From Guptibacillus hwajinpoensis (lineage in GTDB: Bacteria; Bacillota; Bacilli; Bacillales; Guptibacillaceae), in contig NZ_LELK01000001.1 of the NCBI RefSeq assembly GCF_001039475.1, positions 15,436 to 79,435 of the forward strand: DNA of 64,000 nt. The letters are read 5' to 3'. Below are positions 9,281-54,523 of this stretch, in pieces (position 1 is the first letter of the stretch; each line of letters begins with the position of its first letter). The notes beneath the pieces are model-generated. The model did no database searches, was not told the DNA's origin, and worked only from the letters and a program-made list of their open reading frames with translations. Position numbers and translations under genes: made by a program.

Positions 9281-9290
9281 TTAGAAAATA

Positions 9291-9440
9291 ACTTATCAAG
9301 AGAGACTGAGGGACTGGCCCGATGACGTCCGGCAACCTGCTTTTTGCAAGGTGCTACTTCCAGCAAAATGGAGTCCATTTTGGAAGATAAGGGGAATCAA
9401 GGTAACTTGATCTGTCTTTCCAATTTGGGAAGGCTTTTTT
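9291..9440 (+). ncRNA. SAM-I riboswitch (S-box) with terminator
   Basis: All S-box core blocks are present in order: CTTATCAAGAGAG, GAGGGACTGGCCCGATGA, CGGCAACC, GGTGCTACTTCCAGCA and a GATAAG closing strand. A hairpin (CTTTCC / GGGAAG) with a T6 run at 9435-9440 is the expression platform. High S-adenosylmethionine should stabilise the terminator and switch off the downstream yezD and sulfate assimilation genes. Confidence 0.95.
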
Positions 9441-23160: not shown

Positions 23161-23310
23161 AAAAAAAGCCCTCTATAAGAAGAAGACTTTGGCTGCTCTT
23201 CTTCTTATCGTTCAAGTTGAATTCAACTTGCTGGAATTAGCACCTTTCCAGAAATAATCCGGTGGTTGCTGAAGCTTCATAGGGCCAGTCCCTCTGCTTC
23301 TCTAGATAAG
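23161..23310 (-). ncRNA. SAM-I riboswitch (S-box) of the methionine operon
   Basis: On the minus strand the blocks read CTTATCTAGAGAAG, GAGGGACTGGCCCTATGAAG, AGCAACC and GGTGCTAATTCCAGCAAG, followed by an AAGAAGAAGA / TCTTCTTCTT terminator stem and a run of T before metI. High SAM should terminate transcription of metI-metC-yitJ-metH. Confidence 0.95.
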
Positions 23311-23411
23311 AAATGAAATTGTATAAAGTTTTTGTGATGATTCTTGTTCAATAATCTACATGATGTGAAAACGAATTGCAAGTGTTTTTTGAGAATTATC
23401 TGAAATCTGCT

Positions 23412-41337: not shown

Positions 41338-42357
41338 ATGGGAGACTTTAAACGATACTCACGGCAAATGCTTTTTTCACCTATTGGAGAAGAGGGACAA
41401 AATCAGTTTAGTCAATCAAGCGCATTAATTGTTGGGATGGGAGCACTTGGAACCGCAATTGCGAATCATCTTGTCCGAGCAGGGTTTGGTTACGTAAGAA
41501 TTGTTGATCGCGATTATGTAGAGCAAAGCAATTTGCAAAGACAAATGCTCTTTGATGAGGAAGATGTAGCAGCTTCGTTACCCAAAACGGTTGCGGCAAA
41601 GAAAAAACTTGAAAAGATGAACTCTTCCGTTACGATTGATGCGGTAACAGCTGACGTAAACGCTGGGAACATCATGGATCTCCTTGACGGAATTGATTTT
41701 GTAATGGACGGAACAGATAACTTTTCAACTCGTTTTCTACTAAATGATGCTTGTTTTAAGGAAAACATTCCATTTGTGTATGGTGGTGCTGTAAGCTCTC
41801 GTGGTATGACCGCTTTGTTTGTACCTGAAGAAACCCCATGTCTTCGTTGCTTTATACAGAGTGGGGAAGGATCGTCAGGTGAAACGTGTGACACGATTGG
41901 TGTCATTTCACCTATTGTTGATATGATCGCATCCTATCAGGTAACTGAAATTATGAAATATGTGTCAGGAGCGCATGATCAACTTCATCGTAGTTTACTA
42001 ACGATGGATATTTGGAATAATCATCGTTACGCTATGAAATTCTCTACCCCAAAAGAAGGGTGCCCTACTTGTCAAAAGCGCGAATACCCAGCATTACAGG
42101 GAGGCGGTAGGCAAGAAGTAACATCGTTGTGTGGAAGAGAAACGATTCAAATTCATCTTGAACCTCAGTTTGATTTACAAAAGTGGGCAACAAAACTCGA
42201 GAAAACAACAACCGTTAAGAAGACACCCTTTCTCCTCAGGGTTCAGTTGGAAGAGGGAGAAAGACTTGTGCTATTTCCAGACGGTCGTGTTCTCATTCAG
42301 GGCACAGAGGACAGTGGAAGAGCAAAAGCCTTGTACGCAAGGTATATAGGAATGTAG
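41338..42357 (+). CDS. moeB: MoeB/ThiF family adenylyltransferase
   Basis: E1-like enzyme that adenylates the C-terminal glycine of MoaD or ThiS. 339 residues. ATP-binding GMGALGTAIANHLVRAG, RDYVEQSNLQRQ, catalytic DGTDNFSTRFLLNDAC, and a zinc site from CLRC and CPTC. The C-terminal 90 residues form the extension seen in Bacillus MoeB and ThiF. Coupling to mobA favours MoeB, but the thiamine operon downstream lacks thiF, so it may serve ThiS too. Confidence 0.88.
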   Translation: MGDFKRYSRQMLFSPIGEEGQNQFSQSSALIVGMGALGTAIANHLVRAGFGYVRIVDRDYVEQSNLQRQMLFDEEDVAASLPKTVAAKKKLEKMNSSVTIDAVTADVNAGNIMDLLDGIDFVMDGTDNFSTRFLLNDACFKENIPFVYGGAVSSRGMTALFVPEETPCLRCFIQSGEGSSGETCDTIGVISPIVDMIASYQVTEIMKYVSGAHDQLHRSLLTMDIWNNHRYAMKFSTPKEGCPTCQKREYPALQGGGRQEVTSLCGRETIQIHLEPQFDLQKWATKLEKTTTVKKTPFLLRVQLEEGERLVLFPDGRVLIQGTEDSGRAKALYARYIGM

Positions 42358-42406: not shown

Positions 42407-42435
42407 TTGACAGAGTTACAGATCGGTTATAAAAT
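42407..42435 (+). promoter_or_regulatory. Promoter of the T-box transcript
   Basis: TTGACA (42407-42412), a 17-base spacer and TAAAAT (42430-42435). Confidence 0.7.
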
Positions 42436-42477
42436 AACAATGTTACTTAAACGCACAAAAGCATAAAAGTATAAAAG

Positions 42478-42686
42478 TGATGAGTTAGACGAGTAGCTTC
42501 TAATAGAGGGCAGTAGCAGAGACCTGATGGATGGTGAGAATCAGGGCATCTAGAAGTGAATTTACATCTAATGAACTTTGTCGTTGTCCTCACGCTATAG
42601 AGGATCCAAGGTGGACAGTAAATACTGTCAAAAAGGGTGGTACCGCGAATTCGTTCGTCCCTTCAATTATTGAAGGGCTTTTTTTA
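42478..42686 (+). ncRNA. T-box leader, probably tyrosine-specific (TAC specifier)
   Basis: A Stem I with AGTA on its 5' side and GAA on the 3' side of the specifier loop is followed by the T-box core AAGGGTGGTACCGCG (about 42637-42651) and a CCCTTCAAT / ATTGAAGGG terminator with a T7 run. Between GAA and the lower stem (TCTAAT) the codon TAC followed by A is best placed as specifier. Uncharged tRNA-Tyr should bind and allow read-through into the NhaC-family gene. Confidence 0.9.
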
Positions 42687-42750
42687 ATGGAGAAGGATAG
42701 AGAAAGCAACACTATAGATAGGACAACTTAGATTAAGGGAGAGAATAGCA

Positions 42751-44118
42751 GTGAAGAAATTATCATTTTCCATGGCGCTAACTGTAATAGCGCTTTTGAT
42801 GAGCTGGATGCTTTTCAGTATCATCGTATTGAAGGTAGAACCACATATGCCACTGCTCGCTGGCATTGTAGGGATGGGCATACTTGGCTTAGCCCTTGGA
42901 ATGAAGTGGGAAACCATTGAAAAAGGACTTCTAGAAAGTATCACAACTGGACTTAAACCTATATTAATTTTGTTTATTGTTGGGATGATGATTTCTGTAT
43001 GGATGCAAAGCGGAACTGTTCCGACATTATTATATGGCGGCCTTCAGTTTATTCAACCAGAGTGGTTTTTAATAAGTGCACTTATTGTAACAATTATCGT
43101 ATCTAGTTTTACCGGCAGTTCTTTTACGACAATAGGCACAATAGGAATCGCGATGATGGGAATTGGATCGGCGATGGGAGTTAATCCTGCACTTGCTGCA
43201 GGGGCAGTCATATCTGGTGCGTGTTTTGGTGACAAAATGTCTCCTCTTTCAGATACGACAAATTTCGCTCCAGCCGTAGCAAAAGTAGATTTGTTCACTC
43301 ATATTCGTCATATGATGAAGACGACAATACCAGCTATTATCGTGACGGTCATTTTCTTCTTTATGATGAGTAAGAACTTATCGACTTCAGTTAATCCCGA
43401 AGATATGCAGAATGCGATTAATGTATTAAAAAGTGAATTTAATTTATCGATCTGGACATTAATTCCACCAGTAATCGTCCTGGTACTTGCAGTTCGTCGT
43501 GTTCCTGTACTCCTTACTTTATTTGCTGGATTGCTAGCTGGTATTGTTGTAGCCATATTAACTCAGAGCGTGTACTCGGCAACAAGTATACTTTCAACGA
43601 TGCAAAATGGGTTTGTAAGTGAGACGTCCAGTGACCTAGTTAATGGCATTATCAATAGAGGTGGCCTTCAATCTATGATGTGGAGTGTTTCCCTCATTGT
43701 TCTAGCACTAGCGTTGGGAGGAGTTCTCCAAGTCATGGGTATCATTCAATCGCTCATGAGTGGATTAACTAAACTTCTAAGTAGCAGAGGCCATTTAATT
43801 TCTGCCACAGCCGGTTCTTCAATAGGTGTTAACTTGCTAACTGGGGAGCAGTATTTATCCATTCTTCTACCTGGTCAGACCTTTGAACCTTTTTATGATA
43901 AAGCAGATGTGGATCGTAAGTATTTATCACGCACGCTTGAAGATGCAGGAACATTAGTAAACCCGCTAATTCCTTGGGGCGTTTCAGGAGCATTTTTTGC
44001 TGAGACACTAGGAGTGGCAGTCCTGAGCTATCTTCCATTTGCGATATTTCTTTGGTTGTCTCCTATATTTACAATCGTTCTAGGCTATTGGAATGATTTC
44101 AAGTTGCGTAAAGCTTAA
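42751..44118 (+). CDS. NhaC-family transporter, candidate tyrosine transporter
   Basis: Membrane protein of 455 residues with ten or more hydrophobic segments, annotated by family as a Na+/H+ antiporter (NhaC). Conserved GACFGDKMSPLSDTTNFAPA lies near 155, and TAGSSIGVNLLTGEQYLSILLPG near 350. The T-box leader suggests amino-acid control; comparative work has proposed that T-box-linked NhaC/YheL proteins carry tyrosine, so an amino-acid/ion exchange role is likely. Start is GTG. A hairpin whose right arm is the next ribosome binding site follows. Confidence 0.88.
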   Translation: MKKLSFSMALTVIALLMSWMLFSIIVLKVEPHMPLLAGIVGMGILGLALGMKWETIEKGLLESITTGLKPILILFIVGMMISVWMQSGTVPTLLYGGLQFIQPEWFLISALIVTIIVSSFTGSSFTTIGTIGIAMMGIGSAMGVNPALAAGAVISGACFGDKMSPLSDTTNFAPAVAKVDLFTHIRHMMKTTIPAIIVTVIFFFMMSKNLSTSVNPEDMQNAINVLKSEFNLSIWTLIPPVIVLVLAVRRVPVLLTLFAGLLAGIVVAILTQSVYSATSILSTMQNGFVSETSSDLVNGIINRGGLQSMMWSVSLIVLALALGGVLQVMGIIQSLMSGLTKLLSSRGHLISATAGSSIGVNLLTGEQYLSILLPGQTFEPFYDKADVDRKYLSRTLEDAGTLVNPLIPWGVSGAFFAETLGVAVLSYLPFAIFLWLSPIFTIVLGYWNDFKLRKA

Positions 44119-44390: not shown

Positions 44391-44457
44391 TTTTAATAAA
44401 GGGGGTAGAAGGGTTAGATAATATGGTAAAGAGGGTTTAAGGGAGGTGGTGTTAGAA

Positions 44458-45162
44458 ATGAAGTGGACACATATTTACTTTGATTTAGATAATACGCTTT
44501 ACGATCATGAACTAGCTTTTCAAAGAACAATCGAGCATTGTGCAGAGCAAATGCTTAAAAGAAAAGGTTCTAACATTACACCAGCTCAGTGGTTTAGGGT
44601 ATTTAAAACGTATTGTGATCACTATTGGGATAATTATGAGAAGGGAACCTGGTCAAGGGATACCTATCAAATACAGAGATATTGCAGTGCGAATGACGAA
44701 TTCAATTTAACTTGTTCAGAGGAAGAAGCTCTCAACTTCCAGAAAGAATACCAATCTAAAGTAGCCTCTTTTGCAGAGCTTTATTCTGACGCTTCACTTC
44801 TATTATCTCGTCTACAGCTCAGAAATGTACACTTAGGTATCATTACAAATGGACGGAAACAAACGCAAATGGCAAAAATAAAAGCGCTTAACATTCCGCA
44901 GTGGTTCCCAATGGAAAATATATTTATCTCTGAGGAAGTGGGTCTAGCTAAGCCTGAACTTGATTTATTTAACTATGTGATGAATGAGCAGGGGAGTTAC
45001 CTCTATATAGGCGACACATGGGAGCATGACATAGAGCCAGCCCTAGAAGCTGGCTTCGATGCCGTATATTTTAATTCACGTAATGAGGATATGGAACAAT
45101 CCACTAAACACGTTCCTGAAGTATCTACATATAAACAATTGCTGGATTTATTCCATGTTTAA
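44458..45162 (+). CDS. HAD family hydrolase
   Basis: Phosphatase of the haloacid dehalogenase superfamily, about 234 residues, cap type I (helical cap at 15-100). Motif I is FDLDNTLYD, motif II is IITNG, motif III the lysine in LAKPELD, motif IV is IGDTWEHDI. Candidates include a nucleotide or sugar-phosphate phosphatase. The GGGAGG site is 11 bases before ATG 44458; GTG codons at 44446 and 44449 are too close. Confidence 0.88.
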   Translation: MKWTHIYFDLDNTLYDHELAFQRTIEHCAEQMLKRKGSNITPAQWFRVFKTYCDHYWDNYEKGTWSRDTYQIQRYCSANDEFNLTCSEEEALNFQKEYQSKVASFAELYSDASLLLSRLQLRNVHLGIITNGRKQTQMAKIKALNIPQWFPMENIFISEEVGLAKPELDLFNYVMNEQGSYLYIGDTWEHDIEPALEAGFDAVYFNSRNEDMEQSTKHVPEVSTYKQLLDLFHV

Positions 45163-54357: not shown

Positions 54358-54379
54358 TAAAACTAATTTCATATTGTTT

Positions 54380-54523
54380 AAGACTAGGGGTGCCTTCATT
54401 TTGGGAAGGCTGAGAAAAGGAAACCTTATTTCCTTTACCCTTGAACCTGATCTGGTTTGTACCAGCGTAGGGAAGTCGGTAGTGTTTTCTACCCCCATTC
54501 CATACGTGGAATGGGGTTTTTTG
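54380..54523 (+). ncRNA. TPP riboswitch (THI element) with terminator
   Basis: The conserved blocks CTAGGGGTGCC, GGCTGAGA, ACCCTTGAACCTGATCTGG and CAGCGTAGGGAAGT occur in order (aptamer to about 54480). A CCCCATTCCA / TGGAATGGGG terminator with a T6 run follows at 54492-54523. Thiamine pyrophosphate should terminate transcription of thiE-thiS-thiG-thiO-thiD. Confidence 0.97.

Follow-up and report, generated by a model that had tools for sequence, protein, structure and literature searches.

A probable two-layer, tyrosine-responsive control region precedes an NhaC-family transporter gene of Guptibacillus hwajinpoensis

The window, the whole 64,000-nucleotide stretch of Guptibacillus hwajinpoensis DNA that was analysed, contains an NhaC-family transporter gene preceded by a predicted promoter, a tandem 8-bp array and a T-box leader with an intrinsic terminator (Table 1). 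The gene order assigned with Pfam is DUF92-MobA-ThiF-nhaC-HAD, which is complete in Bacillus taeanensis and takes the form DUF92-ThiF-nhaC-HAD in Alkalihalophilus pseudofirmus (Bacillus) OF4, the genes of both relatives being named by eye. The window protein scores 522.6 bits on the NhaC model TIGR00931, above the cut-off of 370, and also matches PF03553; a second model, that of the arginine/ornithine antiporter ArcD, gives 383.1 bits where 650 is required. Among named nhaC genes, the closest belongs to Pseudalkalibacillus hwajinpoensis Y2 (98%). A sequence search for a solved homologue returned none at E ≤ 1. The predicted structure (pLDDT 85) has the fold of an organic-ion elevator transporter, and its best structural match is the integrative model of MleN (9a59, TM 0.92), followed by the TRAP, NaS and NaDC organic-ion transporters. 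MleN, a malate/lactate antiporter, shares this predicted fold at 34% identity; its substrates, as given in the available part of the literature, are organic acids, unlike the tyrosine proposed here for the window protein.

Table 1. Coordinates of the nhaC locus, numbered from the first letter of the window
Feature	Position	Strand	Evidence
ThiF/MoeB-family gene upstream, part of the synteny with OF4	41338..42357	+	Pfam; relatives' counterparts by eye
Predicted sigma-A-type promoter, TTGACA-17-TAAAAT	42407..42435	+	11/12 matches; layout recurs in relatives
Tandem 8-bp array, candidate operator: CTTAAACGC, then AAAAGC/AAAAGT/AAAAGT	42446..42478	+	
T-box leader (RF00230)	42471..42665	+	Rfam, 106.3 bits, gathering cut-off 93
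Stem I lower helix, 5' strand TTAGA	42485..42489	+	Leader read; Stem I alignment/covariation
AGTA, specifier-loop S-turn	42492..42495	+	Invariant in 14 aligned leaders
GAA, specifier-loop S-turn	42558..42560	+	Invariant in 14 aligned leaders
Specifier codon TAC (Tyr), followed by A at 42566	42563..42565	+	Related leaders; covariation
Stem I lower helix, 3' strand TCTAA	42567..42571	+	Leader read; Stem I alignment/covariation
T-box sequence AGGGTGGTACCGCG	42634..42647	+	Sequence read; Rfam
TGGT within the T-box sequence, facing the tRNA NCCA end	42638..42641	+	
Intrinsic terminator, stem CCCTTCAA/TTGAAGGG and T run (stem 42659-42677)	42659..42684	+	Terminator scan
NhaC-family transporter, 455 aa, GTG start (TIGR00931; clade B of the family tree)	42751..44118	+	
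HAD hydrolase downstream, part of the synteny with OF4	44446..45162	+	Pfam; relatives' counterparts by eye

The place of the transporter in its family was determined from a redone NhaC set with open ends, in which all 231 loci gave an open reading frame; near-identical sequences counted once, these amount to 206 distinct proteins, 205 of them in the tree, and the clade counts below come from this set. A first set, which left out genes whose stop lay beyond the fetched stretch, underlies the shuffle control, the specifier tally, the signature residues and the spacing count. Clades A and B group together with a support of 99 (FastTree; long branches exist), and clade B holds both the window protein and the NhaC of OF4. 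A T-box lies within ~900 bases upstream of 21 of the 33 members of clade A, 28 of the 102 members of clade B and one of the 70 members of the rest (C). Of the 171 proteins of the first set, all 126 from clades A and B have T126, N404 and V411, and the other 45 mostly differ at these residues. Mapping the T-box onto the first tree takes 10 changes, at least six of them forced, which makes the T-box, taken by itself, a labile trait. The nhaC relatives of Gottfriedia have a Tyr T-box and no array, in the order T-box-tyrS-T-box-GNAT-nhaC (tyrS and GNAT by eye), indicating that tyrosine control takes more than one form. Within this group the open reading frames were read in loci L075, L083 and L097, and two T-boxes were seen in L077, L079, L081, L084 and L088.

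The earlier note stated that comparative studies had assigned tyrosine transport to some T-box-linked NhaC proteins, and this is in keeping with Wels 2008 (PMC2494555), which lists NHAC under the Tyr T-boxes in the passages available. The Tyr T-box on NhaC genes is therefore already known, with cases from B. anthracis, O. iheyensis, three Lactobacillus species and E. faecalis that have the same kind of T-box and gene. The window gene differs from these in being a clade-mate of OF4 NhaC and in a two-base linker before TAC, and the promoter array is unmentioned in the passages available. The window locus is accordingly a member of a known group with a variant linker, to which is added a second layer that may define a larger regulon.

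A few other features were seen around nhaC genes. Two to three consecutive Tyr T-boxes (GAA-N-TAC) stand upstream of nhaC in L378, L379 and L381, where short open reading frames between T-box and nhaC seemingly have a common GG(I/L/V)(A/V)RY motif (by eye). The clade C gene of L365 has a T-box ~118 bases before it with the loop GAA-T-AAC-A (Asn), suggesting that NhaC relatives may serve other amino acids. Of 79 named loci, 16 have a cobalamin riboswitch on the downstream side of nhaC; most of these are from Metabacillus (L042, L058, L060, L073, L076, L082, L086, L087 and L089-L096, the one in L090 cut by the locus end).

The array, CTTAAACGCACAAAAGCATAAAAGTATAAAAGT, closely follows the -10 box and lies at the predicted transcription start, beginning near +4 of the predicted transcript; its last unit overlaps the 5' end of the T-box. 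Promoter-like sites as a class occurred at chance in the scan (one found, 1.1 expected). The same array design is present upstream of nhaC relatives with and without a T-box, including the nhaC of OF4. Consensus scores of at least 18 (of 24.5) were obtained for 117 of 172 upstream regions and for none of their 172 letter-shuffled counterparts; of the thresholds tried, 18 was the first to give no shuffled matches (at 16, 134 versus 29 shuffled). Within the 117 sites, AAG-AAG distances of 8 (244), 16 (147) and 24 (53) stand out as peaks, and no other distance up to 26 is counted more than 20 times; the usual array is made up of 3-5 half-sites every 8 bp (92 of 117 nhaC sites). By clade, the array is found at 29 of 33 genes in A, 87 of 102 in B (116 of 135 for both together) and six of 70 others, one of these six exactly at the threshold. 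Rfam at the gathering cut-off gave no family over the array in 79 relatives' loci except T-box matches covering its last unit; in that scan the T-box of L032 fell below the cut-off and was seen by motif only. A Bacillaceae-1 RNA lies close to the array in L090.

The array also occurs before other genes. One pattern was matched exactly 69 times in 51 of 101 genomes, overlaps inside a single array included, against three times for the reversed control, and a second pattern gave 35 matches against two in 28 of 120 genomes. The 72 array loci opened represent 67 distinct places (five were second copies), the remaining placed matches of the 101-genome search lying, outside these 67, before nhaC genes already in the set. 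The array stands before a TrpX-like binding protein gene at 17 of the 67 places, nhaC at 14, a DRE-TIM aldolase-like gene at six, DAHP synthase-chorismate mutase at five, phenylalanine hydroxylase and chorismate synthase at four each, an APC permease at two (one weak, 47 bits) and MoaA at one; 13 places precede unclassified or no genes and one is inside an open reading frame. Family names were obtained with NCBIfam on one member each, with the others named by similarity to it and MoaA by eye. The tested members gave 697 bits for the aromatic amino acid hydroxylase (cut-off 346), 643 for DAHP synthase/chorismate mutase (279) and 444.7 for chorismate synthase (TIGR00033, 212.2), and the TrpX-like protein gave 240.9 bits, below its family cut-off of 390. 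The DRE-TIM aldolase-like and MoaA targets have no obvious aromatic role; as the former (L268, L275, L387, L390, L391 and L392) is found repeatedly behind the same promoter array, a link of this gene to aromatic metabolism is suggested.

In the genome of the window itself, the array is found at nhaC and at the DAHP synthase gene, the latter with a slightly different first unit, and the DAHP synthase array recurs in all three other genomes of the same genus in the 120-genome search. At a third place that matches the second pattern exactly (C8:189873), no evident aromatic gene follows, and when up to three mismatches were allowed the own-genome count did not exceed that of the reversed control (16 versus 20). 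Judged from its sequence and gene company, the array is most likely the candidate operator of an aromatic-amino-acid regulon in Bacillales. Panina 2003 reportedly deals with aromatic regulation in Gram-positives. No description of the array was found in the openly licensed PMC literature; within that scope, the array, the aromatic genes it accompanies and the membership of an OF4-type NhaC are new.

The array is perhaps bound by the TrpR-family protein YerC/HisR, as suggested by its half-sites of CTTTA-N6-WAAAG, which resemble the published HisR (YerC) operator frame CTTTA-N6-TAAAG. The likeness extends to the half-site frame only: the HisR operator is one 20-bp palindrome at his genes, whereas the array repeats its half-sites at aromatic genes. 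A TrpR-family (YerC) protein over the cut-off is encoded in 97 of 101 genomes, and a second paralogue was not found, each genome having at most one match over the cut-off, plus a broken 34-bit fragment in genome G021. Of the 19 genomes of the Gottfriedia family, 18 are without a TrpR-family match over the cut-off, genome G138 being the exception. All 17 nhaC upstream regions fetched from this family score below 18 for the array and 16 of them have a T-box; the T-box of the clade C locus L365 has an Asn-like specifier and the others have TAC where read. The array is lacking in all 16 clade A and B rows of this YerC-poor family versus three of the 119 others (L036, L098 and L142), the remaining 116 having it. 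As the absence is essentially that of one lineage, the joint absence of array and YerC is a lead and not proof. The B. cereus group is described as being without HisR (PMC9413887, in the part available), and T-boxes are reported there on nhaC (B. anthracis) and on phenylalanine hydroxylase (PMC2494555, in the passages available), which fits this absence. In G138, a YerC/TrpR-family gene lies just behind nhaC and a tyrosine decarboxylase gene two genes upstream, with one gene between. This is much like the tdcP-tdcA-tyrT-hisR2 clusters, which pair a putative tyrosine transporter with a TrpR-family regulator in the available part of PMC9413887; the window genome differs from them in having YerC on another contig (L399) and in combining a promoter array with a T-box.

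We give a slightly better than even chance to the array belonging to a regulator other than YerC/HisR. HisR is described for histidine genes, and the part of its target table available (PMC9413887) includes the tdcP-tdcA-tyrT cluster in four Lactobacillales and no aromatic biosynthesis genes. The near-universal presence of YerC discriminates little, its absence falling mainly in one family, and an own-genome search for the HisR consensus cacTTTAnnnnnnTAAAgtg with up to three mismatches was uninformative (281+281 matches versus 380+380 for the control). What argues for YerC/HisR is the similar half-site frame together with the lack of the array throughout the clade A and B rows of the YerC-poor family.

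The start of the array at about +4 of the predicted transcript and a perfect hairpin in one copy (L030) would also be consistent with an element of the 5' untranslated RNA, either bound by a protein in the manner of TRAP or acting as a hairpin. A DNA operator is the preferred reading and the RNA element seems improbable: the window copy folds weakly (-3.3 kcal/mol, z -0.77), two nhaC copies (L227 and L234) score better on the opposite strand, and in several relatives the -10 box is immediately followed by the array.

Over 445 aa, the window protein and the NhaC of OF4 share 57% identity. The OF4 protein has 462 residues, in agreement with the size given in the available parts of two papers, and scores 734 bits on TIGR00931; the OF4 genome also has a second homologue that is broken between two reading frames (218 and 215 bits), besides one match of 50 bits. 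Because strain, length and score agree, the OF4 locus is taken to be the characterised nhaC. The same two papers, as far as available, describe its product as a measured Na+/H+ antiporter, the original work being Ito 1997; OF4 NhaC is given there as an electrogenic Na+/H+ exchanger, and one of the papers says the same of B. subtilis YheL and describes YqkI as exchanging malate and lactate. The earlier note had called the antiporter label probably wrong for the window gene. This is not shown, and with a counterpart reported as a measured antiporter the label cannot simply be called wrong. The two nhaC genes have similar neighbors, the three signature residues and the promoter array in common; they differ in that no T-box was found before nhaC in OF4 or its close relatives in Alkalihalophilus, Shouchella and B. 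taeanensis, and in that the OF4 product was studied as an antiporter.

This identity, the similar gene order and the missing T-boxes speak for a true Na+/H+ antiporter, whose tyrosine control would be regulatory drift after a Tyr T-box landed in this lineage. We regard this as unlikely. The array is kept at the nhaC of OF4 and in 71 of 74 clade B rows without a T-box, TAC is kept in nearly all T-box leaders (see below), the Tyr T-box appears in another setting in Gottfriedia, and nhaC is near a tyrosine decarboxylase gene in G138. A recent landing of a meaningless T-box, considered separately, is weakened by the promoter array in relatives without a T-box. A tyrosine transporter coupled to both Na+ and H+ would fit the tyrosine control as well as the antiport data.

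The T-box leader was described in the earlier note as complete, with its T-box sequence and terminator, and the Rfam covariance-model search upholds this, with E 1.8e-22 for a score over the gathering cut-off and a terminator stem followed by T's. The AGTA/GAA loop is flanked by covarying helices, and the TGGN bulge is followed by the terminator; terminator-like sites as a class numbered two in the scan against 0.3 expected. A TGGT in the T-box sequence expects A73 in the tRNA. Among 14 Pseudalkalibacillus leaders (13 distinct), 96.8% of Stem I cells are paired and eight pairs have changes on both sides, compared with 23.5-47.8% paired and 0-1 double-changed pairs when the partners are slid by 1-3 columns. 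The lower helix, which starts one base after TAC, varies among U-A, C-G and U-G. When the pieces are folded in isolation, the stability of Stem I (z -0.90) and that of the terminator region (z -1.34) do not clearly exceed the stability of shuffled sequences, so the evidence for the T-box is that of homology and covariation and not of energy.

Two frames fit the specifier loop of the window leader, GAA-TT-TAC-A and GAA-T-TTA-C. Structural alignment to the T-box model, proposed in the earlier note as a check, recovered the T-box but did not bring TAC under the consensus specifier columns, as two bases were left as an insert. The assignment comes instead from the related leaders, which keep TAC, and from the covarying lower stem, which sets TAC and a purine beside the helix. 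TAC followed by a purine is read in 42 of 43 nhaC T-boxes of the first set, by a pattern that admitted TAC or GAC only and by reading the leaders by eye, and the remaining one (L233, clade A) has GAC (Asp). The two-base linker is found in 15 of the 43, namely 14 of the window's clade and L032, and the own-genome T-box ahead of a gene reading as tyrS has GAA-T-TAC (by eye). The Tyr specifier named in the earlier note is thus supported by sequence comparison, as is its view that TTA (Leu) is less well placed. A leader sensing tRNA-Leu is very improbable and was rejected on the comparison of the 43 leaders: GAA-N-TTA-C does agree with a linker of the usual one base, and all 15 two-base-linker leaders retain it, but this frame is not TTA in nine of the 43 (L085, L163, L199, L203, L214, L218, L219, L225 and L233), the covarying helix adjoins TAC, and the own-genome T-box of a leuS-like gene (L006) appears to have CTC (by eye).

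Taken together, these data probably describe a two-layer tyrosine-responsive control region before a tyrosine-type NhaC transporter. For the first layer, the sequence is conserved and stands before aromatic genes; most likely a repressor that reports aromatic amino acids binds the half-sites spaced every 8 bp on the predicted transcription start and would occupy the array when aromatic amino acids are ample. For the second, the T-box is established by the covariance model, covariation and specifier conservation, and tRNA binding, expected from the family, would lead to antitermination: uncharged tRNA-Tyr read by the TAC specifier would prevent the terminator at 42659, and with charged tRNA-Tyr the terminator would form. 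A shortage of tyrosine would relieve both layers and nhaC would be made. From this regulation and the gene context, the product most likely imports tyrosine in a manner coupled to Na+/H+ movement, and the antiport measured for the OF4 counterpart could be one face of the same transporter. Tentatively, and with rather less confidence, this may be extended to a Bacillales aromatic regulon of tandem 8-bp arrays read by YerC, in which the founding antiporter NhaC would be a Na+/H+-coupled tyrosine transporter and the Tyr T-boxes a layer added here and the sole layer where YerC was lost.

The common annotation of NhaC is that of a sodium/proton antiporter. If the subfamily to which the type protein belongs is controlled in the way of a tyrosine gene, a large number of annotations would have to be reconsidered, and with them the interpretation of older work on alkaliphile physiology. 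An operator common to these genes would also suggest that Bacillales have a general regulator for aromatic amino acids, which was not found in the openly licensed literature; the candidate named here, YerC, is tied there to histidine genes.

Further elements were noted in the genome of the window and in OF4. A gene reading as an NSS-family transporter lies behind a T-box with GAA-T-TTC-A (Phe) in L003, and one reading as an MFS transporter lies behind a T-box with an ambiguous specifier (CGAAACAAGCC) in L010, both in the own genome. Rfam places two SAM riboswitches and one TPP riboswitch in the window, at 23202-23312 (-), 9290-9393 (+) and 54376-54490 (+). Between ThiF and the nhaC of OF4 (L029, 1617-2495), there are seemingly repeated coding-like segments.
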